Source: Sipunculus nudus
Lineage: Eukaryota > Annelida > Sipuncula > Golfingiida > Sipunculidae
Direction of reading: 5' to 3'
NCBI GenBank assembly: GCA_026874595.1
Contig: CM049307.1
Coordinates: 75,492,643-75,556,642 of the forward strand
Length of the DNA: 64,000 nt
Part shown: one piece after another, positions 32,524 to 59,710 of the stretch
Position numbering within the stretch: position 1 is the first letter of the stretch
Layout: each line of letters starts with the position of its first letter
Notes under the pieces: model-generated
Databases searched by the model: none
What the model was told of the DNA's origin: nothing
What the model saw: only the letters and a program-made list of their open reading frames with translations
Made by a program: the position numbers and the translations under genes

Positions 32524-32925
32524 TAGCTCAGCTGACTAAAAAGTCATCTGAGCTACAGCGATCACTCTTTTGTCTGTCAACAGGGCTCAAATCATAACTG
32601 CCGGTCATAGAAACATCTAACTGAAAATCCATTAGTCCATAACAAATCTCCTTGAAATTTGTGAAATTAGGTCACTGTGACCTATATCCTCTGAGCTACA
32701 GGGCTCTAGGTTACCCCCCCCCCCCCCCCAGAATTATTAAAAATGTGATACAAAAGCTCCAGTATCTGAATAACTAATGCATTGATTGCAATGATTCTTT
32801 CCATGTATATTGATCATTGAATGTTTCATTGTTTCCTGAAGACTCGTGGTGCCACCTGTATTTTTCCTAATTTAACACTTTTTTTTCTCTGTTTATGAGA
32901 CCTTCAGATGAAGCAAATCCCACCA
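32524..32925 (+). mobile_element. Element B, truncated copy
   Basis: The head AGCTCAGCTGACTAAAAAGT and CATCTGAGCTACAGCGATCA match copy 2, followed by one partial 338-bp unit (TGGTGCCACCTGTATTTTTC, TATGAGACCTTCA). It runs straight into the 33-bp satellite and has no 3' end, so the satellite replaced or grew from its interior. Confidence 0.7.
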
Positions 32926-35900
32926 AATAGACCACCATAGTGATACTCAGACCCATCACAGAGACCACAATGTTGACATCCAGACCTACACAAAGACCAC
33001 AATTGTGACACCCAGACCCACCAAACAAAACACTATGGTGCTCCCAGACCCATCACACAGACCATTATTGTGGTACCCAGACCCACCAAACATACCAGCA
33101 AAGTGACACCTATACCTATCACACAGACCACAATGATGACACGAAGACCCGTCACACAAGACCACCATCGTGACACCCAGACCCACCATACAGACCAAGT
33201 TAGTGACACCCAGACCCACCACACAGATCATCATAGTGACACAAAGACCCACCACACAGACCACCAAAGTGACACCCAGACCCACCACACAGACCACAAT
33301 GTTGACACTTAGGCCCACCAAATAGACCACCATGGTGACACCCAGACCCACCACACAAAGCAGCATTGTGACACCCTGACCCACCACAAGGTCCAGCATG
33401 ATGACATCCCAGACCCATCACACAGAGCACCATGGTGACACCCAGACCCATAACACAGACCACCATGGTGATACCAAGACCCACCACACAGACCTGCATA
33501 AAGACACTCAGACCCATCACACAGACCACCATGGTGACACCCAGACCAATCACACAGACCACCATTGTGACACCAAGACCCTTCACACAGACCACAATGT
33601 TGACACTCAGACCCACCAAATAGACCACCAATGTGACACTCAGACCCATCACACAGACCACAGTTGTGACACCCAGACCCACCACACAAAACTATGGTGA
33701 CACCCAAACCCAACACACAGACCATTATCGTGGTACCCAGACCCATCACACAGACCACCATGGTGACACCCAGACCCATCACACGGACCAGGATGGTGAC
33801 ACCCAGACCCACCACACAGACAAGCATTGTGACACCCAGACCCACCACAGAGACCACCATCATGACACCAAGACCCACCACACAGACCACTATAGTGACA
33901 CCCAGACCCACCAGACAGACCACAATGTTGACACTCAAGCCGACCAAACCACCATGTTGACACCTGGATCCACCACATAGAGAAGCATTGTGACACCCAG
34001 ACCTACCACAAGGATCAGCATCATGACACCCAAACCCATCACACAGACCACCATGGTGACACCCAGACCCATCACAAAGACCACCATGGTGACACCCAGA
34101 CCCATAACACAGACAACCATGGTGATACCACTACACAGACCTGCATAAAGACACTCAGACCCATCACACAGACCACGATGGTGACACCCAGACCCATCAC
34201 ACATACCACCATGGTGACATCCCAGACCCATCACACACACCACCATGGTTATACCCAGAACCCATCACATAGACCACCATGGTGACATCCCAGACCCATC
34301 ACAAATACCACCAGGGTGACATCCAGACCCATAACAAAGACCACCATGGTGACACTCAGACCCACAACACAGACCACCATGGTGATACAAAGACCCACCA
34401 CGCAGACCTGCATAAAGACACCCAGACCCACCACACAGACCACAGTGTTGACACCCAGACCCATCACACAGATCACCATGGTGACACCCAGACCCATCAC
34501 ACAGACCACCATGGTGACACCCAGACCCATCACACGAACCACGATGGTGACACCCAGACCCACCACACAGACAAGCATTGTGACACCCAGACCCACCACA
34601 GAGACCAGCATTATGACACCCAGACCCACCACACAGACCACCATGGTGACACGCAGACCCACCACACAGACCACCATCGTGACCCCAGACCCACCACACA
34701 GACCACCATGGTGACACGCAGACCCACCACACAGACCACCATCGTGACCCCAGACCCACCACACAGACCAACACAGCAACACCCAGAAGAACCACCTAAC
34801 TAACAACCTGACACACAGACCCTCCAGAGACCAACACTGTCACACCAAAACCCACCACACAGACCAGCATGGTGACATTCAGACCCACCACACAGACCAG
34901 CATGGTGACATTCAGACCCACCACACAGACCAGCATGGTGACACCCAGACCCACCACACAGACCACCATGGTGACATGCAGACCCACCACACAGACCACC
35001 ATGGTGACATGCAGACCCACCACACAGACCACCATGGTGACATGCAGACCCACCACACAGACCACCATGGTGACATGCAGACCCACCACACAGACCACCA
35101 TGGTGACATGCAGACCCACCACACAGACCAGCATGTAGACATTCAGACCCACCACTCAGACCAGCATGGTGACATGCAGACCCACCATACAGACCACCAT
35201 GGTGACATGCAGACCCACCACACAGACCACCATGGTGACATGCAGACCCACCATACAGACCAGCATGGTGACATTCAGACCCACCACACAGACCAGCATG
35301 GTGACATTCAGATCCACCACACAGACCAGCATGGTGACATTCAGACCCACCACACCGACCACCCTTGTGACCCCAGACCCACCACACAGACCACCATGGT
35401 GACATGCAGACCCACCACACAGACCACCATGGTGACATGCAGACCCACCACACAGACCACCATGGTGACATGCAGACCCACCACACAGACCACCATGGTG
35501 ACATGCAGACCCACCACACAGACCACCATGGTGACATGCAGACCCACCACACAGACCAGCATGGTGACATTCAGACCCACCACACAGACCAGCATGGTGA
35601 CATTCAGACCCACCATACAGACCAGCATGGTGACATTCAGACCCACCACACAGACCACCATGGTGACACCCAGACCCACCACACAGACCACCATGGTGAC
35701 ATGCAGACCCACCACACAGACCACCATCGTGACCCCTGACCCACCACACAGACCACCATGGTGACATGCAGACCCACCACACAGACCACCATCGTGACCC
35801 CAGACCCACCACACAGACCAACACTGCAACACCCAGAAGAACCACCTAAATAACACCCTGACACACAGACCCTCCAGAGACCAACACTGTCACACCAAAA

Positions 35901-37695
35901 CCCACCACACAGACCAGCATGGTGACATTCAGACCAACCTTACAGACCAGCATGGTGACATTCAGACCCACCACACAGACCACCATGGTGACACCAAGAC
36001 CCACCACACAGACCACCATGGTGACATGCAGACCCACCACACAGACCACCATGGTGACATGCAGACCCACCACACAGACCACCATGGTGACATGCAGACC
36101 CACCACACAGACCACCATGGTGACACGCAGACCCACCACACAGACCACCATCCTGACCCCAGACCCACCACACAGACCAACACAGCAACACCCAGAAGAA
36201 CCACCTAACTAACACCCTGACACACAGACCCTCCAGAGACCAACACTGTCACACCAAAACCCACCACACAGACCAGCATGGTGACACGCAGACCCACCAC
36301 ACAGACCAGCACGGTGACATTCAGACCCACCACACAGACCACCATGGTGACACCCAGACCCACCACACAGACCACCATGGTGACATGCAGACCCACCACA
36401 CAGATCACCATGGTGACACCCAGACCCACCACACAGACCACCATGGTGACATGCAGACCCACCACACAGACCACCATGGTGACATGCAGACCCACCATAC
36501 AGACCACCATGGTGACATGCAGACCCACCACACAGACCACCATGGTGACATGCAGACCCACCACACAGACCAGCATGGTGACATTCAGACCCACCATACA
36601 GACCAGCATGGTGACATTCAGACCCACCACACAGACCAGCATGGTGACATTCAGACCCACCACACCGACCACCCTTGTGACCCCAGACCCACCACACAGA
36701 CCACCATGGTGACATGCAGACCCACCACACAGACCACCATGGTGACATGCAGACCCACCACACAGACCACCATGGTGACATGCAGACCCACCACACAGAC
36801 CACCATGGTGACATGCAGACCCACCACACAGACCACCATGGTGACATGCAGACCCACCACACAGAACACCATGGTGACATGCAGACCCACCACACAGACC
36901 AGCATGGTGACATTCAGACCCACCACACAGACCAGCATGGTGACATTCAGACCCACCACACAGACCAGCATGGTGACATTCAGACCCACCACACAGACCA
37001 CCATGGTGACACCCAGACCCACCACACAGACCACCATGGTGACATGCAGACCCACCACACAGACCACCATCGTGACCCCAGACCCACCACACAGACCACC
37101 ATGGTGACACCAGACCCACCACACAGACCACCATCGTGACCCCAGACCCACCACACAGACCAACACTGCAACACCCAGAAGAACCACCTAACTAACACCC
37201 TTACACACAGACCCTCCAGAGACCAACACTGTTACACCAAAACCCACCACACAGACCAGCATGGTGACATTCAGACCCACCACACAGACCAGCACGGTGA
37301 CATTCAGACCCACCACACAGACCACCATGGTGACACCCAGACCCACCAAACAGACCACCATGGTGACATGCAGACCCACCACACAGACCACCATCGTGAC
37401 CCCAGACCCACCACACAGACCACCATGGTGACATGCAGACCCACCACACAGACCACCATCGTGACCCCAGACCCACCACACAGACCAACACTGCAACACC
37501 CAGAAGAACCACCTAACTAACACCCTGACACACAGACCCTCCAGAGACCAACACTGTCACACCAAAACCCACCACACAGACCAGCATGGTGACATTCAGA
37601 CCCACCACACAGACCAGCATGGTGACATTCAAACCCACCACACAGACCAGCACCCTGTACCAAGACCCACCACACAGACCAACACCCTGACTCAC
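32925..37695. repeat. 33-bp satellite array with higher-order structure
   Basis: About 140 units of 33 bp. The unit contains GACCCACCACACAGACC and then ACCATGGTGACA plus a variable pair of bases (CC, TG or TT). The left part (to about 34,780) is diverged and the right part is far more uniform, as expected if recent expansion was on the right. A distinctive block with CAACACCCAGAAGAACCACC recurs at about 34,776, 35,827, 36,185, 37,167 and 37,494, giving spacings near 1050, 358, 982 and 327 bp. This is a higher-order pattern of long and short blocks. The unit length is a multiple of three and lacks stop codons, so open frames up to 309 codons exist on both strands; they are not genes. Confidence 0.95.
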
Positions 37696-43600: not shown

Positions 43601-44026
43601 TCAGCTTGGTGAGATAGGAGGCTCTGGCTTGATCACTGTGATCTTCTGTATTTTATTGCTGACGGATATATTTTGTAAGGCTGAGTACTTGGTCCTCAAA
43701 TCTTGAAGTTCATGTCGCATCTTATTATTTTCACTTCGGAGTTTGTCCACTTCTACTTGTAATGTCTGCCTCTCTTGCTCCAATTCTTCTTTTTGTGTTA
43801 ACCTGCGTTCTCTACAATTTGCAGCATAACCTCTATTCTTGAGGGTTCTTCGACGCTGTTTTAGTTTTAAGACTTCATCTCGAGGTAGACCGCGTAACAT
43901 CCGGTTCAACTCACGAACTGTTAACATAACTAGGTCATGGTCTGATATTGAGAAGTTTGGAGAGTCCTGGAATTCTTGGTATTGGCTACTAGAACCTTCA
44001 GAGCTGTCATCATTCTTTGGTTTTGC
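43601..44026 (-). CDS. MAFK: Small Maf transcription factor, terminal bZIP exon
   Basis: The acceptor is TGTATTCTTTCCAG|GCA and the stop TGA is at 43601-43603, giving 141 residues. Residues 28-56 are the Maf extended homology region ([16 protein letters not shown]) and residues 57-81 the basic region ([20 protein letters not shown]), with the Tyr typical of Maf. Heptad positions L82, L89, L96, M103, L110 and L117 form the zipper. There is no transactivation domain, which defines small Mafs (MAFF/G/K, fly maf-S). The tail KITVIKPEP resembles the ITIVK-type end of vertebrate small Mafs and includes an IKPE SUMO-type site. Small Mafs dimerise with CNC factors such as Nrf2/NFE2 or with themselves and bind MARE/ARE sites in the nucleus. 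The family call is firm; which vertebrate paralogue it matches is meaningless if there is one ancestral gene. Confidence 0.96.
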
Positions 44027-45805: not shown

Positions 45806-45847
45806 CAGGTTCAAAGGCTCTGAGTCCATAGGGCTTTTTGGCCTGGC
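45806..45847 (-). CDS. MAFK: Small Maf, 14-codon internal exon
   Basis: Acceptor CTCTTTGTCCACAG|GCC and donor CTG|GTAAGT frame 42 nt, exactly 14 codons in phase 0 (ARPKSPMDSEPLNL). It joins in frame to the bZIP exon. Its start ARPK resembles the AKPK that begins the bZIP exon, and its end MDSEPLNL resembles the MDHEEPLDL that ends the upstream exon, so it may derive from exon duplication or be an alternative cassette. Its internal Met would give a protein of 149 residues, the usual small-Maf size. It can be skipped without a frame change. Confidence 0.8.
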
Positions 45848-46366: not shown

Positions 46367-48249
46367 CTATGTGGCATGATGTAAACAAACTGTATAGCAT
46401 GACTAGGCTTATCTACGCACACTTTATGTATAGCGTGCATGTGTTCGGGCAGTTTCTGCTTAGCAATCAATCACAATTCAACCTGTAGGGGTCCTTGGGT
46501 ACACTAAAATGTGATGATGCAATATATATAAAATGTACTTTGGAAGGAGCTCGCCCTCTCAATTAATGTAGGTGGGCAGGACCCTGCATGGTGAGCCAGC
46601 AGATATAACAAAGACCTGCACTGCCCACTCTGGGTGTTGCCACCACTACCTACACTCCCTCCATAATGACATTTTCTTCATGGGTTTAACATCTCCTGCC
46701 TTTTTGCAAGTGCACATTAGTTTATGTACATTTAAAAGCGATATAAACTCTGGTCTATTCTCAGGTGTGTCATGCGTAGTGAAATGTAAAATGAAAGTAC
46801 TTGTGGTTTGTTTCCTACCATTGCCCCACCCATATGTCATGTTAAGAACTCAAATACTCACTGTAAAATTAAAACCACAATTCCCTTAATCAATACAACA
46901 TGTTATAAAATGAAACAGAATGAACAGAATTTTAAAAATTATTACAATACATTTAAGCCATAAGGTTTCTTGATAGCAAACCTATACAAATTAAAAAAGT
47001 AATTTGACAAAAATACTGCTGTTTATTTAATTGTTTAGATAATTAGCACTCTTACCTTAATGTGTATTTTTTTAATTATAATGATTGGATTCTTTCTCAA
47101 ATTACAAATAACTGAAAAGCCTTATGAATTTGTAATAACTTCATTTTAATAAATTCATTTTATCATTTCACTTTTATTCTAGAATTTGAAGAGAATTTAA
47201 CACAAAATATTTAGTCACAATAAATTGCTTTCCAAATTCACTTTCAAAGTTTACTTTTAATCTGATAAAATATATACTACATGCAGAAATGTGATATTAA
47301 TTTTATTAATCATTCATTGCTTAAGCCATATGGTCAAATCAAAATTAGAAGTTATACAATATAAAACCATCAATAAAATATATACTACTCACATAAACAT
47401 GATATTAACTTTTAATTTAATTGATCACTGAATAATTTGTAGGTATTATAAAGTCCAGATAAAGGTTTAAAGTTTTAATTACGTTCTTACTTTTAATATA
47501 ATTTATAAAAAAAATTGTCTAGTTTCACTGAATATTATCAATATAAATAATTGATGCTGTCTCTCAACTCATATCATGCTAAGTTGGTGACTGACTTATA
47601 TATATGCATATCAGGCAAGCGCAAAGTTCTTCGTCAAAATTCAAGTACAGATAAAACCATATGGACCCCCCTGGTTTCAAACCATATATCTCAAATAAGT
47701 AAGTAGGTGAGAGAAGACAAAGACAGCTCATACTGTAAGTGACTCTGTTATATACTTCTTTACATAACCTACTTAGCAAGATTACATGGACAAAGAGCTA
47801 AAAGAGATGAGGCCCTTGTCCAGAAATGGATATGTATTTGTGTCTATTATTTTGGCCACTTGACAATATATGGGAGAGCCATGAAGTAGCAGATGGTAGT
47901 ACAAACTTGCATCTGGAGCAACGCGAGGCAAAAGACGCCTGCAGTTGTACGTGAGAACAGTAAAGAGTGGCCCGATTCCGAGCTACCCAAACACATGTAG
48001 TGCAAAAAGGATACACTGTTGTCAGCATGTACACATACCGGAGCACCCCTGCCATCTTACATCACAAGTACTGCACCAAGCACAAATTTAAAGTCACTCT
48101 CCATACATGTACAGTCAGGCATTTTATCTCCTCCAATAAGATGGAGGAAGGTTTTAATCTTACTCTGTGTCTGTCTGACTGTATGCCTGCCTACCCACAT
48201 ATCAGTCTGTCTATATTTGTGAGACATAACATACTACTATTACTGTGAA

Positions 48250-49690: not shown

Positions 49691-49748
49691 TTAATCCCTA
49701 GTTTTAAGACATAGTCATAATAATGATGACGGTAAATGATGTACTTAC

Positions 49749-49856
49749 AAGATCTAGAGGTTCTTCATGGTCCATGCGTGTCCAGCGTTCTACCCTGTGC
49801 TGCGACTGCTGCTGGTCGTAGTGGTAGCCAAAGATGACTGGGACGTGTACTGGTGC
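49749..49856 (-). CDS. MAFK: Small Maf, 36-codon internal exon
   Basis: Acceptor GCTATGTTTTACAG|GCA and donor CTT|GTAAGT frame 108 nt, exactly 36 codons in phase 0. The peptide starts APVHVPVIFGYHYD, continues with a Gln-rich stretch (QQQSQH) and ends VERWTRMDHEEPLDL. It has no known domain and is an N-terminal extension absent from vertebrate small Mafs. CpG and GC are higher than in flanking introns. It is the first exon that all alternative first exons could splice to. Its internal Met could also start translation: Met to the end of the bZIP exon is 164 residues, or 150 if the 14-codon exon is skipped. Confidence 0.8.
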
Positions 49857-52195
49857 CTGTAAAACATAGCAAAAATCTCTCATTAATATCATATAATTAT
49901 AAAATGATAACCTTCAGAAAAATTCTGCTGAACATAAATAAATGAAAAATGCACATATTTCATTCAGTCAAATGGACCTTGAAACATATGCAGAAGTTTT
50001 TCTATGCATTTAATTTTGTTAAATGGTATTTATAGTGATACTAACACTATTGAGTTACTTACATACCCTCTGACACCCTGTCTTTCCCATGGTGTGCCTC
50101 CTTTTGTGAGATTAGGTGTCACTTACTGGCTGCATACATTATGCTGCGAGCTAATCAAGCTAAGCTGGCCTAGATTATGATATTTCTACATGCCCAGACA
50201 TACCCCGGACACGCATCAACTGCTCAGTCAGCAGATAAGAGTATTTGAGAGAGATAGCAGGTAAACTTTGTTCAAACAACTCTCTTTTCTAACAGGCACT
50301 CATAGAGTCTGACTGATAACCAATGTTCAATAGCACCCGCTGAGCTGGGGAATAAAACTGGACCAGTCAGCCCTTGTCTATGAGTGTACAGAGGTTATGT
50401 AAACTCTGATTCTTGATCATCAATTCTGATAAACCATTTGAAAATGACCTCAGCTATCAATTTTCAAAGTTCAGGTGCACAAAAAAGATTCCTAAATAGC
50501 CACTTATATTTGCATTCAAAAAAAGATACTGAACTATAAATGTGAGGTTTCCTATTTTCATCCACAATTGAATAATGTTTGCATATCATTGTTAAGTAAT
50601 ATCCTTTTTTTTTTTTAGAATTTTCCAGTGCAATGAGTTGTCTAATATTAACCATCACTGATTTAAAATCAAACATGAGTTAGCCAGCACATAATAACAT
50701 TTTTTTTCTAACTCTGATTCTTTATGATAACAAGTGTTCACACTGTTGAGAAGCTAAATATTCTATCAGTCTTCACAACTTCCACTACATGTGATTGCCT
50801 GTGTAATCACTCATGAGAACAGAAACAATGTCCCCCTCATTCTGCATAACTTTCACTATATGTGATCAATACTATGGGTTATCACAGAAATCAACTACCT
50901 GAACTAGCTAAGGTCACCTGTTAAAAGCCAGCATGTACCGGTATGTGTTATTACACGAGCATGTACATGTCACACCTAAAGTGCCAGTATAGCAACAGCA
51001 TACATATACAGTTGTACGTGATTCAAAACAGTTACAACTGTCCTATTGATGAATTTAGTAGTTGTTGTATTGCTGACACCAAAACTGCTGATCTAAGTGC
51101 TTCTAAATTCACAAAAAGATGCCTACCAAGTAATGTGAAGAAACCATCAGATATTAAACACATGATCAAAGCCAGCATAATTCTGGCATGCTCCATTCCC
51201 GCCAGTTGTCTAGTAAGTAGATTCAAATTCCTAAGAACTAGCTGAATAAACATCAAGTAACCACATGACCACTTCCGAGTTTATGTCAGCAGAGGCTATA
51301 CATGTCACACCTACATCAAATTATACAGGTGCAAACACTTTTGGTGGTTTTACGACAAGAACCCTAGTTATATGTCTGGAGACTTATCATTGCATCAGGC
51401 GTACATGAAACAATCCCAGGCTGTGCTGATATCATGAAATTTCCCTCAAGTAATTTTGTGGAAACACGTTTTTGGTAAGCACACATGTTTTGTGATATTA
51501 ATTCCCATTGGTTGGGTCCCCCACCACTCCTCTGTTTGACAGAACACTCCTTTTAGAATAATCCTGTCTGAGGTTATAGTGTGATTAACCAATCTTATGT
51601 GCGATAATGAACCCTTCCTCTCTGCTCGGACTATCAGTGATAAAGCAAGGTGTGCTTCACTAAACACTGGTTAAGCAACCAAGTTGATTTCATTATCTTA
51701 GCAGCACCTCAATTAAGATATGTTTATTGTATTGAAATCATGTTTTGAACATAGATTAGTGATTTAAAAAAAAAGAAGTAATTTTAATATCAAATTATCA
51801 AATTAATCCATCTAAATTATCAAGAACTTGAGATCCTGTGAAAAAAAAATAAAAGATTTCAAAATATTAAATGGTAAATATCTGGATAATTTTTAAAATG
51901 GACCAGTATCAGTTCAGTGAAAGTAAGACTATGCATATCCAAAATGGTCCAGTTAAAAAAAAAAAAAATATATATATAAAAAATATCTCCTAATGAGAAG
52001 TATCCAAACTGTAGATCAATTTGTTAGAAGTATCCAAATTGCGTTTGACAGCAGAAATATATATCCTGACTGACGCCCTGGAATCACTGGTCCAGTTGAT
52101 ATCATAAAGCGCAAACGACAACACAAGTGCCACCACGTATCACAAACAAACACGTATACATGATGCTACAAAATTTCACAAAAACAAACACCAAC
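49857..52195 (-). other. Intron of the small-Maf gene
   Basis: AT-rich sequence with short open frames. A segment at 50943-51195 on the + strand has an open frame ending at a good donor (CTA|GTAAGT) but no acceptor or recognisable domain. Confidence 0.6.
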
Positions 52196-52258
52196 CTGCC
52201 AGTATTCCAACTCATCAGTTTTAGTCTCAAGTCCTGGTGAAAACGCAGGGTTTACCAT
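52196..52258 (-). CDS. MAFK: Small Maf, alternative first coding exon a
   Basis: ATG at 52258 in the context TTGACCATGG, 21 codons (MVNPAFSPGLETKTDELEYW and one Gln), then donor CAG|GTTGGT in phase 0. It joins to the APVH exon without a frame change; isoform length would be 21+36+14+141 = 212 residues. Upstream, on the minus strand, is GC-richer DNA with a TATA box (52437-52443) and a full CRE (52625-52632), which supports this as a real first exon. The donor is weaker than those of the other exons. Confidence 0.65.
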
Positions 52259-52436
52259 GGTCAACATTGACAGAGACACTATGACCGACCTGGATAAAAA
52301 CGTAGTCCGGGTTAGTTGCTGAAACAGCTATCTGCCGTGGCAGGCTTGCTATCACTGATGAGACTCACTATAGATGAACGTAATATCACAAGTGCAGCTC
52401 ACTTAGAAATGACTGCACTTGTTTATCCCCCGCCAC

Positions 52437-52443
52437 ATTTATA
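52437..52443 (-). promoter_or_regulatory. TATA box for first exon a
   Basis: The minus strand reads TATAAAT within AAAAGTATAAATGTGG, 179 bases upstream of the ATG at 52258. This predicts a transcript start near 52410. Confidence 0.45.
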
Positions 52444-52582
52444 CTTTTGCATACCTGGCAAATAGCATAATCATTTGGGTCATAGAACTACGCAAGCTGT
52501 TTCTCAGTACAGGCAAACAACACGGTGGGCGGGGCTTCAGTCTCATTCGTTGACGACTGTGCTGTTCGTCAGTCAGCGCTCG

Positions 52583-52592
52583 TGAATCAGCA
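52583..52592 (+). promoter_or_regulatory. AP-1/half-MARE-like site
   Basis: TGAATCAGCA: a TGANTCA-type core followed by the GCA flank that Maf proteins contact. One base differs from the consensus TGACTCAGCA. It lies in the same GC-rich upstream region as the TATA box and CRE. Confidence 0.3.
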
Positions 52593-52624
52593 TAGGCCCA
52601 TTGATAAAATTCTACGAGAGTGGG

Positions 52625-52632
52625 TGACGTCA
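52625..52632. promoter_or_regulatory. Palindromic CRE
   Basis: TGACGTCA, the full CREB/ATF site, about 185 bp upstream of the TATA box on the minus strand. TGACGTCA is also the centre of CRE-type MAREs, but the GC flanks are missing. Confidence 0.4.
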
Positions 52633-52819
52633 GAGCCTGGCGGCGCACACCAAGTGACCTCATAGGTCGCCTACTAGGCCTGTTTACTGCAGACACCCAC
52701 GTAGGCATCGGGCAGCGGGTATTTTTACTCTTGTTTACAACCAATATACCAAAACATGCAACCACCCACTGTACAACAAATGTCAGCAATTCACTAAACA
52801 GCCCACTGTAACAGCGTAG

Positions 52820-54035
52820 CATCTATCTTTTAATTAATTCACTATCCACACTAAGCATGCGCAAACGCGTTCAGACGGCGAGGAGTTTATGAATGAACAA
52901 TCAAAGCAAATATTACACACGCGGTCTATCAGAAGTGTTATTAAGCAGGTGCTTAATAATATCAATTGGTACGTGAAAATGTAGGGAGAGGTTTGCATCC
53001 TCGAGGGATGTATGACCGGCTAGTTATGATTTTTATGTCGCTCCACTGGTATTCACGACAGGAAACCCACTACCTCCCTCCCTGGGTTGGTTGCGGTGGA
53101 CCCCTCCGGCTGTCGTCTGCGAACATCCGTTTATTACTTGTGAGAGGCAAGGTGGCCTTTCCGCTGGAATTTATTAAGTCTGAAAAAAAATTCCGATACC
53201 TTAATAGGACTGATATGGCCTACCTCCTGGTAACCCAACTCAGTATAGACGCCGTTTGAATCAGAAGGACTAAAAATTCCTTTCGTCCATCATACAGACG
53301 CTTTAAATAGCGCGGGAATGTCGAGATAGCGGGCGCACTTTTAATTTGGCTCAATTAGCCTGAATTAGACCTCAGTATCTCAGAAATGATTTAATTTACA
53401 CACGTCCATATTAATTCAACGCTGCGGAAACATTTCGTTTACCAGAGCAGTATACTTTATTGATTATATGGCAAAAATCAAAATCTTTTCTTTAGGAACG
53501 CTATTCCGTGCAAGTGCACGCTGTTTTAATTTATTTACCTTGCCTCAACTATGATAATATTTTAAGATAAAGAGATAATTTAGGTCTTTGTCCATTGGCA
53601 CCTCTGCAAATGAGAAAATTAGAAATTCATCGCTAGTTCTCCTTCAAGATGTTTTCTAAAAAGACATCTTATCCAATGATTAAGTGTTATATATCATCTC
53701 TAAAGCTGGTAGATTTTCATTTTACAGGATCTGTGGTTCTATAGCGAAGTCCCTATAACATATAGCGTTTCCCGAAGTTCTCTATGCTTAAAACAAGTTT
53801 CCATATATGCCGTCGCGAAACGCTCAGTCATAAAAGATAATATAAATATGATTGCTTGCAAATTATTTCTGGTGAAAGTGAAAATATTGGCTAAGCGAGA
53901 TTTACCCCATGGTTTGTTTTTATTAACGAACTGTAATAAAATCACGTTAACGTTCAGACCGGAGTACCACAAGCGATTGTGTAACACAGGCCATGTGTGC
54001 GATTACATAACTGACTAGTGCGATATGATACTCAC
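52820..54035 (-). other. Region between first exons a and b
   Basis: Contains GC/CpG-richer DNA at 52850-53330 without a recognised gene. The plus-strand frame 52966-53259 has no start context, splice sites or domain I know. The rest is AT-rich. Confidence 0.4.
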
Positions 54036-54104
54036 GTTTGCTTGTTGACACTGCTCCAGATAACGTGCTATAGCGAGCTGCTTGTGCTTCAGCGTGGCCA
54101 GCAT
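54036..54104 (-). CDS. MAFK: Small Maf, alternative first coding exon b
   Basis: ATG at 54104 (CAACCATGC), 23 codons reading MLATLKHKQLAIARYLEQCQ and three more, then a strong donor AAC|GTGAGT in phase 0. The peptide looks like a short amphipathic helix. A TATA-like run (minus strand of 54250-54256) lies about 146 bp upstream, and CpG-rich DNA follows at 54310-54350. Spliced to the APVH exon it would give a 214-residue isoform. Its function is unknown, and no match to vertebrate small-Maf N-termini is seen. Confidence 0.65.
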
Positions 54105-54789
54105 GGTTGAAATCCGTTAATACTGTATGTACATGTAAATGAATATTGGTTATGTGTGGGATCCCAGCACTATCTGCCCCGACGTTGAATCATGACATTT
54201 CACAGAATTACTGAATCATTTGTTTTTATCACAATGGCCACTGCTTTGAATATATATGGGTGTTAGCCCTATACTGATATTAGTACGAGTGTTTTTACTA
54301 AAGATGATATCGCCTCACGCCCGACTGCGCGCATACCGTGAGTAGGAATGACTGAAGAAAAGGAATCCCGACCCGGATATACAAGCTAAGATACTCCTAG
54401 GTGAAAGGCTCAGCAAATAACTGCTAGTGCACTGGAGTGTATACCTCTTTACATCTACAAAGCTGTGATAACTGAGTGCATAAAGTTCATCCAGTTACAG
54501 GACCAGGCTACAAGCTACAACATGATAATCAAGATCATATTTATTCTAGGTCAGCCTGCCAAACTTAAACCTGACCAACCTCTTGACCCCATTGTGAACA
54601 TAACCAGTACATATCAATACATCAGCCATGCTTACTGTGAAAAACAGCTTTCACTCTATTAAATTATATGGTCCAAGTATTCCAACCAGATCAAACTTTA
54701 CACCTACCTCAGCATGATGTATTTGCTAATGACATGTATTCATACAGGTATTTTATGTGTATTGACATTTTATTATTAAACCCATTCAT

Positions 54790-54792
<3 letters not shown>

Positions 54793-54858
<66 letters not shown>
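54793..54858. repeat. (TA)n(GA)n microsatellite
   Basis: A TA run passing directly into a GA run. Confidence 0.95.
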
Positions 54859-54862
<4 letters not shown>

Positions 54863-55028
54863 TTTTAGTCTAATAATACTATCTGCAATGATGATTGTGG
54901 AGCAGGTTTGTTTTAACTGTGAAATCGGTCTCTTATTTTTGACCCAAGTTATACAATTGTGAAGATTATCCATGTTTTGGCTGATTTTAAAGCGTTAAAT
55001 TATTAAATATAATTTTATTTTTTTAACA

Positions 55029-55047
55029 TGTTTCTTTTGTAAGGGGG
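55029..55047. repeat. Poly-G tract
   Basis: Uninterrupted G run, one of several homopolymer G/C tracts in the window. Confidence 0.9.
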
Positions 55048-55189
55048 GGGGGGGGGGCTGGAAGGTGATTAACACAGTGGTGTGAGTAGAGAAGAGTGAT
55101 GACAATTGGTCACTTTGTGAATCACTGTTAGATAATATTACTGATCCAGCCATGCAGTACTGCTGATGCAGCCTGGCCCTCTGGCTGAC

Positions 55190-55270
55190 CTTAATTAGCC
55201 CAGCAGCTGAGGACATGCTGGACCAGGGGGTCTGAGCTGCACTGTGTACAAAAGAGTGTACCCCAGACAT
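55190..55270 (-). CDS. Small Maf, possible alternative first exon (weak)
   Basis: ATG at 55270, 27 codons (starting MSGVHSFVHSAAQTPW), then a possible donor AAG|GTCAGC in phase 0. Composition is more GC-rich than its surroundings. The donor is mediocre and a phase-0 match is expected one time in three by chance, so this may be a coincidence. Confidence 0.25.
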
Positions 55271-56559
55271 AACATCTGTACTAGTCAGTCATCACTGGGT
55301 CAGGGTCAGTCAGTCTGGTACAAAAACATAACAGCAGTCATCATGCATGAGACAGCATTCCAGCAACTAAAAACCTAACTCAGGTACACTCTCAGGTACA
55401 CTGGTCAGTAAACATGTAACTTGTCCACACTTCTATCACTTGATTATAATTTGTACATCCTGCTCCCCCCCCCCCCCATAAGCTCTGCTGTTTAAAATGT
55501 TTCGTAAAAATTATTCAGATTATTATTATCCAGATATGATGTCAACCAGATTAGTCACTCATATTATAAACTTTTTTCTATATCTCAGAGCCTGTAAAGT
55601 AAAACTCTGTACTGATCTACAATTTTGTACAAAAACAGGAGAAACATTGACAATTATTATAGTGTATTGTTCATGAGTGAATTTTTAAATTGTAGAAAAA
55701 TAGTCATTCAGTCACTAAACAAATGATATTTGTGAAAGTAAGTGCCCCATTGGTTGGATCACATGGACATTATACATTTAGACCAAATAAAAATGCAGAT
55801 ATCCAAATGAATCTGTTTTGACAATTATATGGGGATAAAATAATGTATGATGAACTCCTTTATTGTCAAATACAAACAAATGAACATCTGGCATAAATAA
55901 AATTTCTTATGTTGAACACATTTACAAATGGATAACTGCGACTGAAGTTATTTCCGCTTCAGGCCCCTGGAGCATTACAGCTGCATGTAAGAGCTAATCT
56001 AAACCTCCATCAAAGATCCTGTTTTTGTTTCTAAATAATTTCCAAAAAAGTTGGGAGGATCATCATCATGGTTGCATTTGAACACATCTGGTGTGTTACA
56101 AGCAGCTTTTTTTCCAAGCCGAAAAATGAAAGGAAATTGTTGTAACTTCTGATAATCCAAGCATTGATATATGGAAACAGTCAAATATCATATCCCCATT
56201 CTACAGTCTAAAATTGTTGGCATTTTGTTGAATAAATAGCATAAAATTTTGCATAAATTGTCTGCATATTTTGGAAGAGTTTTCTTGCAGCCCTATGCCT
56301 TATTTGTGATCATTATTGAAATGTGGCCCAACTAGAGTAACTACCAAACAAGAAGCAACATTTTCCTTATATGGATACAGAGAAGGGCTCCTAAATGATG
56401 AACCAGCTACTACCTGATATACAATAAAACTTCCAAATGATGGACATTTGTGGGGCCAGGTTGTATATCCATTATAGAAAGGCGCCCATATTATTAAGTA
56501 TATAGATCTATAGGTCTACTTTTTATAGGACTGCATAGTGTCTGTATTCCGTTATTAAG

Positions 56560-57130
56560 TTGGCCTTAATGAAGAGGTGTCTGTAATGAAGAGGTGTCTG
56601 TAATGAAGAGGTGTCTGTAATAAAGAAGTGTAATAAAGAGGTGTCTGCAATGAAGAGACGTGTGTATTGAAGAGGTGTCTGGAATTAAGAGGTGTAATGG
56701 AGAGGTGTCTTCAATGAAGAAGTTTCTGTTATGAAGAGGTGTCGGTAATGAAGAGGTCTGTAATGAAGAGGTATTTGTTATGAAGAGGTGTCTGTTATGA
56801 AGGTGTCTGTAATGAAGAGGTGAAATGGAGAGTTGTCTACAATGAAGAAGTGTCGGTAATGAAGAGGTTGTCTGTTATGAAAAGGTGTTTGTTTTGTTGG
56901 GGGGGGGGGGCCTAATGAAGAGAGATGTCCATAACAAGAAGGTTTCTGTAATGAATAGGTGTCCATAGTATAAAGATGCCTGTAATGAAGAGGCGTGTGT
57001 ATTGAAGAGGTGTCTGTAATGAAGAGGTGTCTGTAATGACAAGTTGTCTGTAATGAAGAAGTGTCTGTAATGACAAGTTGTCTGTAATGAAGAAGTGTCT
57101 GTAACAAATTGTCAAAAATGAAGAGGTTTT
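56560..57130. repeat. 17-bp minisatellite
   Basis: About 30 variants of AATGAAGAGGTGTCTGT with single-base changes and small deletions, interrupted by a poly-G tract near 56900. The minus-strand frame 56778-57200 translates the array and is not a gene. The array lies in the small-Maf gene region between first exons. Confidence 0.93.
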
Positions 57131-57687
57131 TCTTTCTGGGGAGTCCTTCATCGATTTTGTTAAGATAATTCCTGTTTAAATTTACTTTAGATTTCCGCAA
57201 ATTTCAACACAATTCATATTTACATTGTAGGTAATATGTTTTTCAGCCTTAGTTGTATCCTTACCAAATTTTAAACAAAATTTAACTGACAGTTTGTGTA
57301 AGGTTATTCCTTCACAAAAACCAGCATATTGGCGGATCCTTATTCAATTAGATAATAATTATCAATCAGCCATGCATAATCTCATCAGATTTAATTAATA
57401 ATTAATTTAAAGATTTCATTAAATTCATGAAATTATGACATGCTTTTTAAAACTTCTGTACAATTTTTAAGATAATGTATGAAAATGCATGAAAAAATGT
57501 CACTAACATAGTGTCTATATAGATCCATGAAAGGATTTTCCAAGAATCAGTTTGCTTCCTTGAATATTAATGCAAACCTTTTTTAGAATTAGTTTGCAAA
57601 AACATTACGTGATGCCTGATCTATCATGATATGATTTTAAACAGATAAATTTTGTGAAAAACCTGAAGATTTAAACATAAGACCTAC

Positions 57688-57819
57688 CTTATACAAGTTC
57701 ATAACTGTATTATGCAGGTGTCCTGAGTAATGGCTTGTGTTTACACCCAAGTGTCCATGCTGAGTTGTGTGCTGTATGTGGAGGGAGGATGCAAGGTCAT
57801 TCCCATTTTCATCAACCAT
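57688..57819 (-). CDS. MAFK: Small Maf, alternative first coding exon c
   Basis: ATG at 57819, 44 codons without a stop (start MVDENGNDLASSLHIQ, end HNTVMNLYK), then donor AAG|GTAGGT in phase 0. The peptide is rich in His, Asn and Gly and has no known domain. Joined to the APVH exon it would give a 235-residue isoform. Evidence is the exact multiple of three, the donor and the position upstream of the gene on the same strand. It could instead be a chance open frame. Confidence 0.5.
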
Positions 57820-58194
57820 GACAGCACAGGATAAAAGCCCAGTTACAGGTCAAACATGTACTTATGTGTTTGTTATTGTGCCACAATCCCAGTAACACGT
57901 AATTATCTGAAGATCCTTTTAAAGAAGTGCAAGGGGAAGTTATGACAATAAAAATTACAGAAAGCAAACAGAAAATCTTCTGAACTTTCAGTCAGATTCT
58001 GCATCAGTATGCAGAATAGGGTTCAAAAGTGCACCATATTCTGCTTCATTAACTCGGAGGTATTATGTGTTAGTCTGACAAATAATAGCCCAACCCTGGT
58101 CATTAATTAAACGCCCATACCTGGGTGTACAAGCTACGGCTTTATGTAACAGAGTCAGGGAGGATACACTCCATAAGGTTCCCCACTGATTCAC

Positions 58195-58254
58195 CCATCT
58201 CTCCCACTTGTCACTGTAAGACGATGCACCGCTGGGCGCGTGGTGCACACTCAT
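58195..58254 (-). CDS. Small Maf, possible alternative first coding exon d
   Basis: ATG at 58254, 20 codons (MSVHHAPSGASSYSDKW and three more), then donor TGG|GTGAAT in phase 0. It is locally GC- and CpG-rich (GCTGGGCGCGTGG), unlike the surrounding AT-rich DNA, which argues for a conserved exon. A second donor at 58120 (CAG|GTATGG) would leave a phase that does not fit the APVH exon. Confidence 0.4.
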
Positions 58255-59710
58255 GGATATATATGCTTATACTGTAATTAACTATTAGATGAAGTTTGTG
58301 TATAACAGTATATGACTTTTGCTTACATAGATCTGTATGAACTGCATGCTGAGGATAGAGGGGGAAGGTTTTCTTTACTTCAGAAACTGATATTTCATTA
58401 TTAGATTATCCAAAAACTTTCCACTCAATAAATCCACTGTCTTGTTTGCTATTTAGTTCTGCTCTCAAATATATATCAATATACTCAGATTTTAAAGCCA
58501 TGAATTTCATTAGCTATGCAGCCTGTCATGCAAGATCAGCTTACTGGAATAGTATGCATGCAGCCTAGGTATATTTGGGTCCATTCTCTAGTTGTACCAC
58601 AGTATATTAATAAATTTAAAAAAAGCAAGAGATTAATGATATTTATTACCCCTGATCTGAATACAAATAATTATTACAATTTCTGCAACAAAAGTTTTTT
58701 TTGGGGGTGGGGGGGGGGATGTCACTGAATTAAACAACAAAGTTTGGTTTCTACCTCCTGTTAACATCCTTTTTATCCATACAGTTAAAAATATTCAGGT
58801 GACCGTAAATATGATGTTAAAGAGCTTATTCATTTTCACATGTGACAATTCATGTACAACAAAAAAAAATAGGTCTGCTTAATCCATTAAATCTTGCTCT
58901 CTTTCCTCTGATGTTACATCATACACTGATAAACCAATCTGCCTTGCTTTACATTATAAAGAGGAAGATAGATCAGCTGATTAAGCAGACACTTCTGATT
59001 TCCATATAACAAGCTTATTTTGAAAGACATGAGGTCTGTGTCATTTCTGTAAAACTGGTAAAACTCTAATCCCCTACAACTTTTATGTGTTTTATTTTGT
59101 ATGATAATACTTTCTGGCTTTGTCATGCAAAAATGAAAATATACATTTAGGATTTTCCACTATCCGCCCCAACCCCCATTCTGTACAAACGTGTGTGATT
59201 TTGAGTAAAAAACATGAATAAATGAAATTAAAATCTTGCACAAATGATAATTCAACATCTCATACTCGGGAAATATAACCCCAAGGCATATCCTCATTAA
59301 AGCATTCTACAGCACTTATCATGTAACAACTTCATCAAGAGATATATGGGTGACTGGGTCAAATAATAAACATATATTACCTATCTTTAGATAACACAAT
59401 CACACCACATCATGATGCTATTGCTATAAGGCATGACCTTGTTGTAACACTATGAGCACCAAATTCAAGCAAGTGAAAACTGTTTCAAAATTGAAAAATG
59501 TTTTATGAGAGAAGCATGAAAACAGAAGGAAGAAATAAATCTTATTATCATTTTTGTAATGGACCATCCTGATACATATAAATACAGTTTTAAATAAACT
59601 ATTGTACAAATATCCAGCATGCTCTCAATGCCATTTAAAGATAAATAAAAACTATTCTAGAGTAAGAAGTCTGGGATTTTTTTCTATACAAGTTCTGGAC
59701 TTCATGACAA
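58255..59710. other. Probable intron or upstream DNA, nothing supportable
   Basis: AT-rich sequence with a short poly-G/T tract near 58700. No exon, repeat copy or RNA gene is recognised. Confidence 0.45.

Follow-up and report, generated by a model that had tools for sequence, protein, structure and literature searches.

The 64,000-nucleotide stretch of the Sipunculus nudus genome analysed here (C2:75492643-75556642, referred to as the window; the genome comprises 1.43 Gb in 153 contigs) carries on its minus strand a small-Maf gene, the only one detected in this genome. An original prediction, made from the letters alone, had given the gene several alternative first coding exons, joined in phase 0 to a 36-codon exon upstream of a bZIP core. 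The firmest new point of our analysis lies further downstream: a predicted micro-exon of 14 codons, together with CtBP-type motifs across the junctions of the small exons. The path first proposed for this part of the gene is probably incomplete: the predicted place of the micro-exon is after the 36-codon exon and before the bZIP exon. A possible interpretation, which we regard as nearly an even call, is a single small Maf consisting of the bZIP exon and two skippable small exons, with promoters in a CpG-rich block and with the number of CtBP motifs set by splicing. The anatomy, frames, splice-site scores, exon-end similarity, CpG pattern and CtBP-encoding exons on which this interpretation builds are observed in the DNA.

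The bZIP exon (43601..44026, minus strand) comprises 141 codons (AKPKND...PPISPS) and a stop, and contains an extended homology region, a basic region and a zipper. Its assignment to the small Mafs was borne out. It matches the Pfam profile bZIP_Maf at 2e-28 and 99.2 bits (cut-off 22), covering profile positions 1-92 in full, and among solved structures MafG (3a5t) was the best match at 1e-32, with MafB at 3e-21 and MafA at 1e-20, i. e. the exon is closer to MafG/K/F than to the large Mafs. The match occupies residues 27-118 of the 141, 23 residues follow the domain, and the upstream exons are predicted to be short. The acceptor of the bZIP exon scores 6.5 bits (top 0.24% of 3345); this and all other splice-site scores were obtained with metazoan consensus frequencies not trained on this genome. 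The C-terminus of the gene (43645-43600) contains IKPE, a SUMO-type site. A genome-wide search for the family returned five matching exons, namely the small Maf, a large-Maf-like gene, a CNC-like gene (both labels are our reading of the open frames) and two weaker ones. The genome thus yielded one small Maf gene, and the large-Maf-like gene is separate and lies on C11. When a spliced retrocopy was sought genome-wide with the bZIP protein, only the gene itself and the large-Maf-like and CNC-like genes matched, and the 36-codon peptide, searched in the same genome, matched only itself. Against viral_contigs the bZIP protein gave 11 pattern matches, none of which was confirmed as a relative.

The 36-codon exon (49749..49856, minus strand; APVHVPVIFGYHYDQQQSQHRVERWTRMDHEEPLDL) is open and in phase 0 on both sides. 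It has an acceptor of 4.2 bits, a donor of 2.5 bits and, nine codons ahead of the donor, an in-frame ATG (49775). An exact 21-base copy of part of this exon (CTTTGGCTACCACTACGACCA; E 4e-7) lies ~630 bases downstream at 49201-49181. The predicted micro-exon, missed so far, was located at 45806..45847 on the same strand (ARPKSPMDSEPLNL); it is in phase 0 at either end and has an in-frame ATG at 45829, an acceptor of 7.9 bits (top 0.06%) and the donor CTG/GTAAGT with 6.6 bits. In a search for internal exons on both strands of the window (acceptor at least 3.5 bits, donor at least 2.0 bits, 7-133 codons) six acceptor-frame-donor segments passed, four on the minus and two on the plus strand. The micro-exon scored best of the six with a sum of 14.5 bits, followed by a runner-up with 8.9. 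On the minus strand between 44030 and 58500 only the micro-exon and the 36-codon exon passed; two further strong donors, at 47056 and 44985, have no in-frame ATG before them and no passing acceptor-frame-donor segment. Since both small exons are multiples of three and in phase 0 on both sides, either could be skipped with the frame kept.

The ends of these exons resemble each other. The micro-exon ends like the 36-codon exon (MDHEEPLDL), the common pattern being MD(x)EPL(D/N)L. Of all 4464 open ends that precede a GT in the window, the micro-exon itself reached a similarity score of 41, the 36-codon exon 24 and the next one 16. The start of the micro-exon (ARPKSP) resembles that of the bZIP exon (AKPKND); 3 of 4804 reach this score, the micro-exon and the bZIP exon being among those 3 by construction. 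As read by eye, matching residues of the exon copies have differing codons at several third positions, which is expected if the copies are old and coding. In the simplest history, the micro-exon would have arisen by an old tandem duplication with one breakpoint within the 36-codon exon and the other within the bZIP exon, leaving the two ends fused.

The predicted spliced peptides read EPLDL/ARPK, EPLDL/AKPK and EPLNL/AKPK (the slash marks the junction), and each of the three tested splice orders yields PLDLA or PLNLA, the third residue after it being K. The CtBP pattern PX[NDS]L[VTSAC]X(1,2)[KR], as given in a passage of PMC4231743, is matched once in each of two splice orders, twice in the third and not at all in the bZIP exon alone; the chance of a match is 0.003 per 64 random residues. 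ZEB binds CtBP via PLDLS with flanking PLNLS motifs, according to parts of PMC2749851, and the junction peptides of the small Maf may bind CtBP as well. CtBP-encoding exons are present in the genome at C1:105671190-105681813. The CtBP gene has two tandem versions of one exon (47 aligned residues with 83% and 74% identity to human CtBP1); AG and GT flank each of them, which suggests mutually exclusive exons. Among the literature matches listed for small Maf and CtBP, no entry contained both terms.

Upstream of the 36-codon exon, all five ATG-started segments of the original prediction are present on the minus strand, open to a GT in phase 0. However, as the candidates were picked for phase 0, their common phase is not evidence. 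Candidate B (52196..52267; MLTMVNPAFSPGLETKTDELEYWQ) has 24 or 21 codons, depending on the ATG (52267 or 52258), and the donor CAG/GTTGGT (2.7 bits). Candidate A (54036..54104; MLATLKHKQLAIARYLEQCQQAN) has 23 codons from the ATG at 54104 and the donor AAC/GTGAGT (3.5 bits). Both lie in a CpG-rich block. The remaining three are a segment of 27 (or 9) codons at 55190..55270 with a donor of 3.6 bits, one of 44 codons at 57688..57819 with the best donor of the five (6.0 bits), and one of 20 codons at 58195..58254 with the weakest (1.0 bit), which has 4 CpG in 60 bases and a third-position GC of 0.70. A sixth candidate, not listed originally, was found on the same strand at 50067..50090. It encodes MGKTGCQR (8 codons, phase 0), its donor AGG/GTATGT scores 3.5 bits, the context of its ATG (CACACCATGG) was rated good, and it is CpG-poor with an observed/expected ratio (o/e) of 0.23. 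This candidate is undecided and shifts the odds little.

When codon usage was compared with that of local non-coding DNA, the 36-codon exon (P 0.005), the micro-exon (0.018) and 54036 (0.046) scored as coding-like, followed by 58195 (0.073), 52196 (0.13-0.14), 57688 (0.26) and 55190 (0.60). The higher GC of the first three may explain much of this. In the composition-matched test, for which 698 codons of the genome served as the training set (those of the bZIP exon among them), the P values of the candidates were 0.31 (52196), 0.39 (54036), 0.89 (55190, codon score -10.4), 0.35 (57688) and 0.74 (58195). This test is weak: of 24 windows known to be coding, each 27 codons long, 9 reach P<=0.05. 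The frames proposed as five first exons are phase-compatible, but for none of them does this test establish coding. Codon usage as a proof of coding was rejected because the local signal was not upheld by composition-matched shuffles; the codon tests cannot separate coding from untranslated sequence.

A serious possibility, which we lean slightly against, is that the upstream exons act as alternative first exons of an untranslated 5' leader, as in vertebrates, and that the protein begins with the ATG of the 36-codon exon (MDHEEPLDL) or with that of the micro-exon (MDSEPLNL). Since both downstream small exons have an in-frame ATG, each followed by G, the upstream exons could be untranslated. 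By eye, the two small exons are unlike each other before their ATGs. The resulting proteins would have 150 residues (36-codon plus bZIP exon), 164 (both small exons) or 149 (micro-exon plus bZIP exon), close to the 160 residues stated in parts of PMC10706432 for the mussel small Maf, and multiple first exons of the mouse and human small Mafs are described in passages of PMC7787795. In addition, the donor CAG/GTCGGT at 52290, ahead of the ATG of candidate B, outscores that at 52196 (3.5 versus 2.7 bits). The leader of candidate B, however, speaks for translation from this exon. From the start site inferred at 52414 onwards, 147 nt are free of ATGs where 2.5-3.8 would be expected (P 0.02 with the rate of the window, 0.08 with that of the block), the first ATG is the in-frame one, and the frame is open into the 36-codon exon.

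The CpG-rich block (52001..54400) has an o/e of 0.68-1.16 per 400 bases compared with a window mean of 0.31, and is the only CpG-rich stretch between 31.4 and 60.4 kb. No other genomic copy of it was found by a search that skips very common words; within 49700-58500, the DNA search gave other copies only for a minisatellite at ~56.6-57.1 kb, a piece at ~57.2-57.3 kb and an AT repeat at 54.8 kb. Only 52196 and 54036 out of the five candidates are inside the block, and their location near its opposite ends makes two promoters plausible. Upstream of 52196, a TATAAAT (52437..52443, minus strand) precedes the start site 52414 (GCAGTC) by 29 nt; this site was inferred from the spacing, and the TATA pattern is common (461 in the window on both strands). 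The window's only copy of the CRE palindrome TGACGTCA is found at 52625..52632. According to a second alternative, the block contains two promoters, and 54036 and 52196 are first coding exons that are spliced to the 36-codon exon or straight to the micro-exon. We consider this possible, if rather doubtful. It agrees with the position of both candidates, with the TATAAAT, the CRE and the ATG-free leader of 52196, and with the GTGAGT donor of 54036 and its codon use, which beats local non-coding DNA. Yet use of the TATA-like site at 54256 would put four ATGs ahead of the one that opens 54036, the donor of 52196 is weak, and neither candidate stood out in the composition-matched test.

Separate promoters had been proposed for the other candidates too. 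55190 and 57688, however, lie in CpG-poor DNA (o/e 0.06-0.18; 0.15 for 57688), and none of seven promoter patterns was found in the 236-241 bases upstream of them (57815-58050 for 57688). The segment at 55190 is probably a chance segment. 58195 is outside the block and has an o/e of 0.41, slightly above the window mean; a TATA-like word at 58475 is followed by three other ATGs before it, and a TATA-like word at 58263 is just 9 bases from its ATG. The number of candidates was compared with that in 42 controls, each 8.5 kb long and taken from the same 214 kb, excluding overlaps with 32-38 kb (minisatellite) and 43-58.5 kb (gene). With at least 20 codons and a donor of at least 0.9 bits, five segments were observed, the controls had a mean of 3.24, and 11 of the 42 reached five. 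At 2.7 bits or more, four were observed and 4 of the 42 reached that number; at 3.5 bits or more, three were observed, equalled by a single control. When the minimum was lowered to 8 codons, the counts at the three cuts were 8, 5 and 4, matched by 17, 12 and 6 of the 42 controls. A smaller control of 10 segments within the window (donor at least 1 bit) had a mean of 2.7 and a range of 0-12, two of the 10 being both strands of one stretch that runs into the minisatellite. As a set, the five segments are thus weak evidence, since only the strictest donor cut makes their number unusual, and it is unremarkable once segments of 8 codons are allowed. The full original model of five promoters and five phase-0 first coding exons with distinct N-terminal peptides is very improbable: although the frames are as described and the three best donors are rarely equalled, the set is ordinary at the lowest cut, three of its members are outside the block, phase 0 was a selection criterion, and the composition-matched P values are 0.31-0.89.

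In the preferred reading of one small Maf with two skippable small exons, one or two promoters within the block (52.0-54.4 kb) would give rise to the transcripts, and the first codon translated would belong to one of the upstream exons 52196 and 54036 or be the ATG of either small exon. Depending on whether the 36- and the 14-codon exon are retained, the small Maf would have zero, one or two CtBP-type motifs, and their number would set the strength of CtBP corepressor recruitment by small-Maf dimers. Transcription, exon inclusion, start codon, duplication history and CtBP binding are here inferred from the sequence. Several findings weigh against this reading. The splice sites of the 36-codon exon are modest, with a T at -1 of the donor, and the small exons were not significant in the composition-matched test (P 0.051 for the 36-codon exon, 0.38 for the first 27 of its codons and 0.055 for the micro-exon). 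Position 5 of the motifs is A instead of S, and CpG-rich stretches are common (36 in 214 kb). Moreover, the two introns that should be copies under the duplication model showed no similarity on the same strand (blastn, E<=0.1); thus either the duplication is old or the likeness of the exons is functional. The interpretation of alternative N-terminal isoforms is partly supported, and 52196 and 54036 are most worth testing. A more specific scheme of splicing-tuned corepressor recruitment would combine two cassette exons derived from one duplicated junction, alternative N-termini from two promoters and a CtBP with a tandem exon duplicate; we think this unlikely.

Some further observations concern the surroundings. 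The nearest recognised gene upstream is NRDE-2 (L014 5822-9999); it shares the strand, is ~100 kb away and is separated from the small Maf by a reverse-transcriptase element (L013). This survey covered open frames of at least 125 codons, 4 of 24 being scanned. A 420-codon frame at L009 had no Pfam match. Within the window, a 4.8-kb array at 32919-37681 repeats a 33-base unit ~145 times and is strongly strand-skewed. On the small contigs C61, C62, C64, C65, C66, C69, C72, C75 and C89 (L025-L027), ten hits with nearly equal scores and intronless frames of 550-551 codons look, in our reading, like bacterial phosphoglycerate dehydrogenases. The assembly therefore seems to include DNA of several bacterial strains related to each other. 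For one of these frames, the best matching relatives in genome_contigs are ~40% identical.

Nrf2 and Bach have small Mafs as partners in the stress response; the usual description of small Mafs is that they lack an effector domain themselves. If the junction CtBP motifs are true, the small Maf itself would bear a repression switch set by exon inclusion. CtBP binds NADH and would then tie the redox state to the antioxidant programme. The gene shares the core of extended homology region, basic region and zipper with vertebrate MafF, MafG and MafK, in which a short coding exon is joined in phase 0 before the core and the alternative first exons are untranslated. In contrast, two short phase-0 exons with CtBP-type motifs across their junctions are predicted here, whereas we know of no CtBP-type motif in the N-terminus of vertebrate small Mafs, which has a SUMO site instead. 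Among invertebrates, MafF_G_K of Mytilus coruscus is of similar size; no gene structure or isoforms are described for it in passages of PMC10706432, whose main text contains neither exon nor intron as a word. NFE2L1 and BACH2, bZIP partners of small Mafs, have isoforms tied to alternative promoters or first exons according to parts of PMC3483171, PMC10646089 and PMC2635362, but these are CNC/BACH proteins and not small Mafs. The closeness of PLDL to PLNL motifs is similar to the CtBP-interaction domain of ZEB, as described in passages of PMC2749851. Unlike in ZEB, the motifs of the small Maf have A at position 5 and would span the splice junctions of skippable exons.

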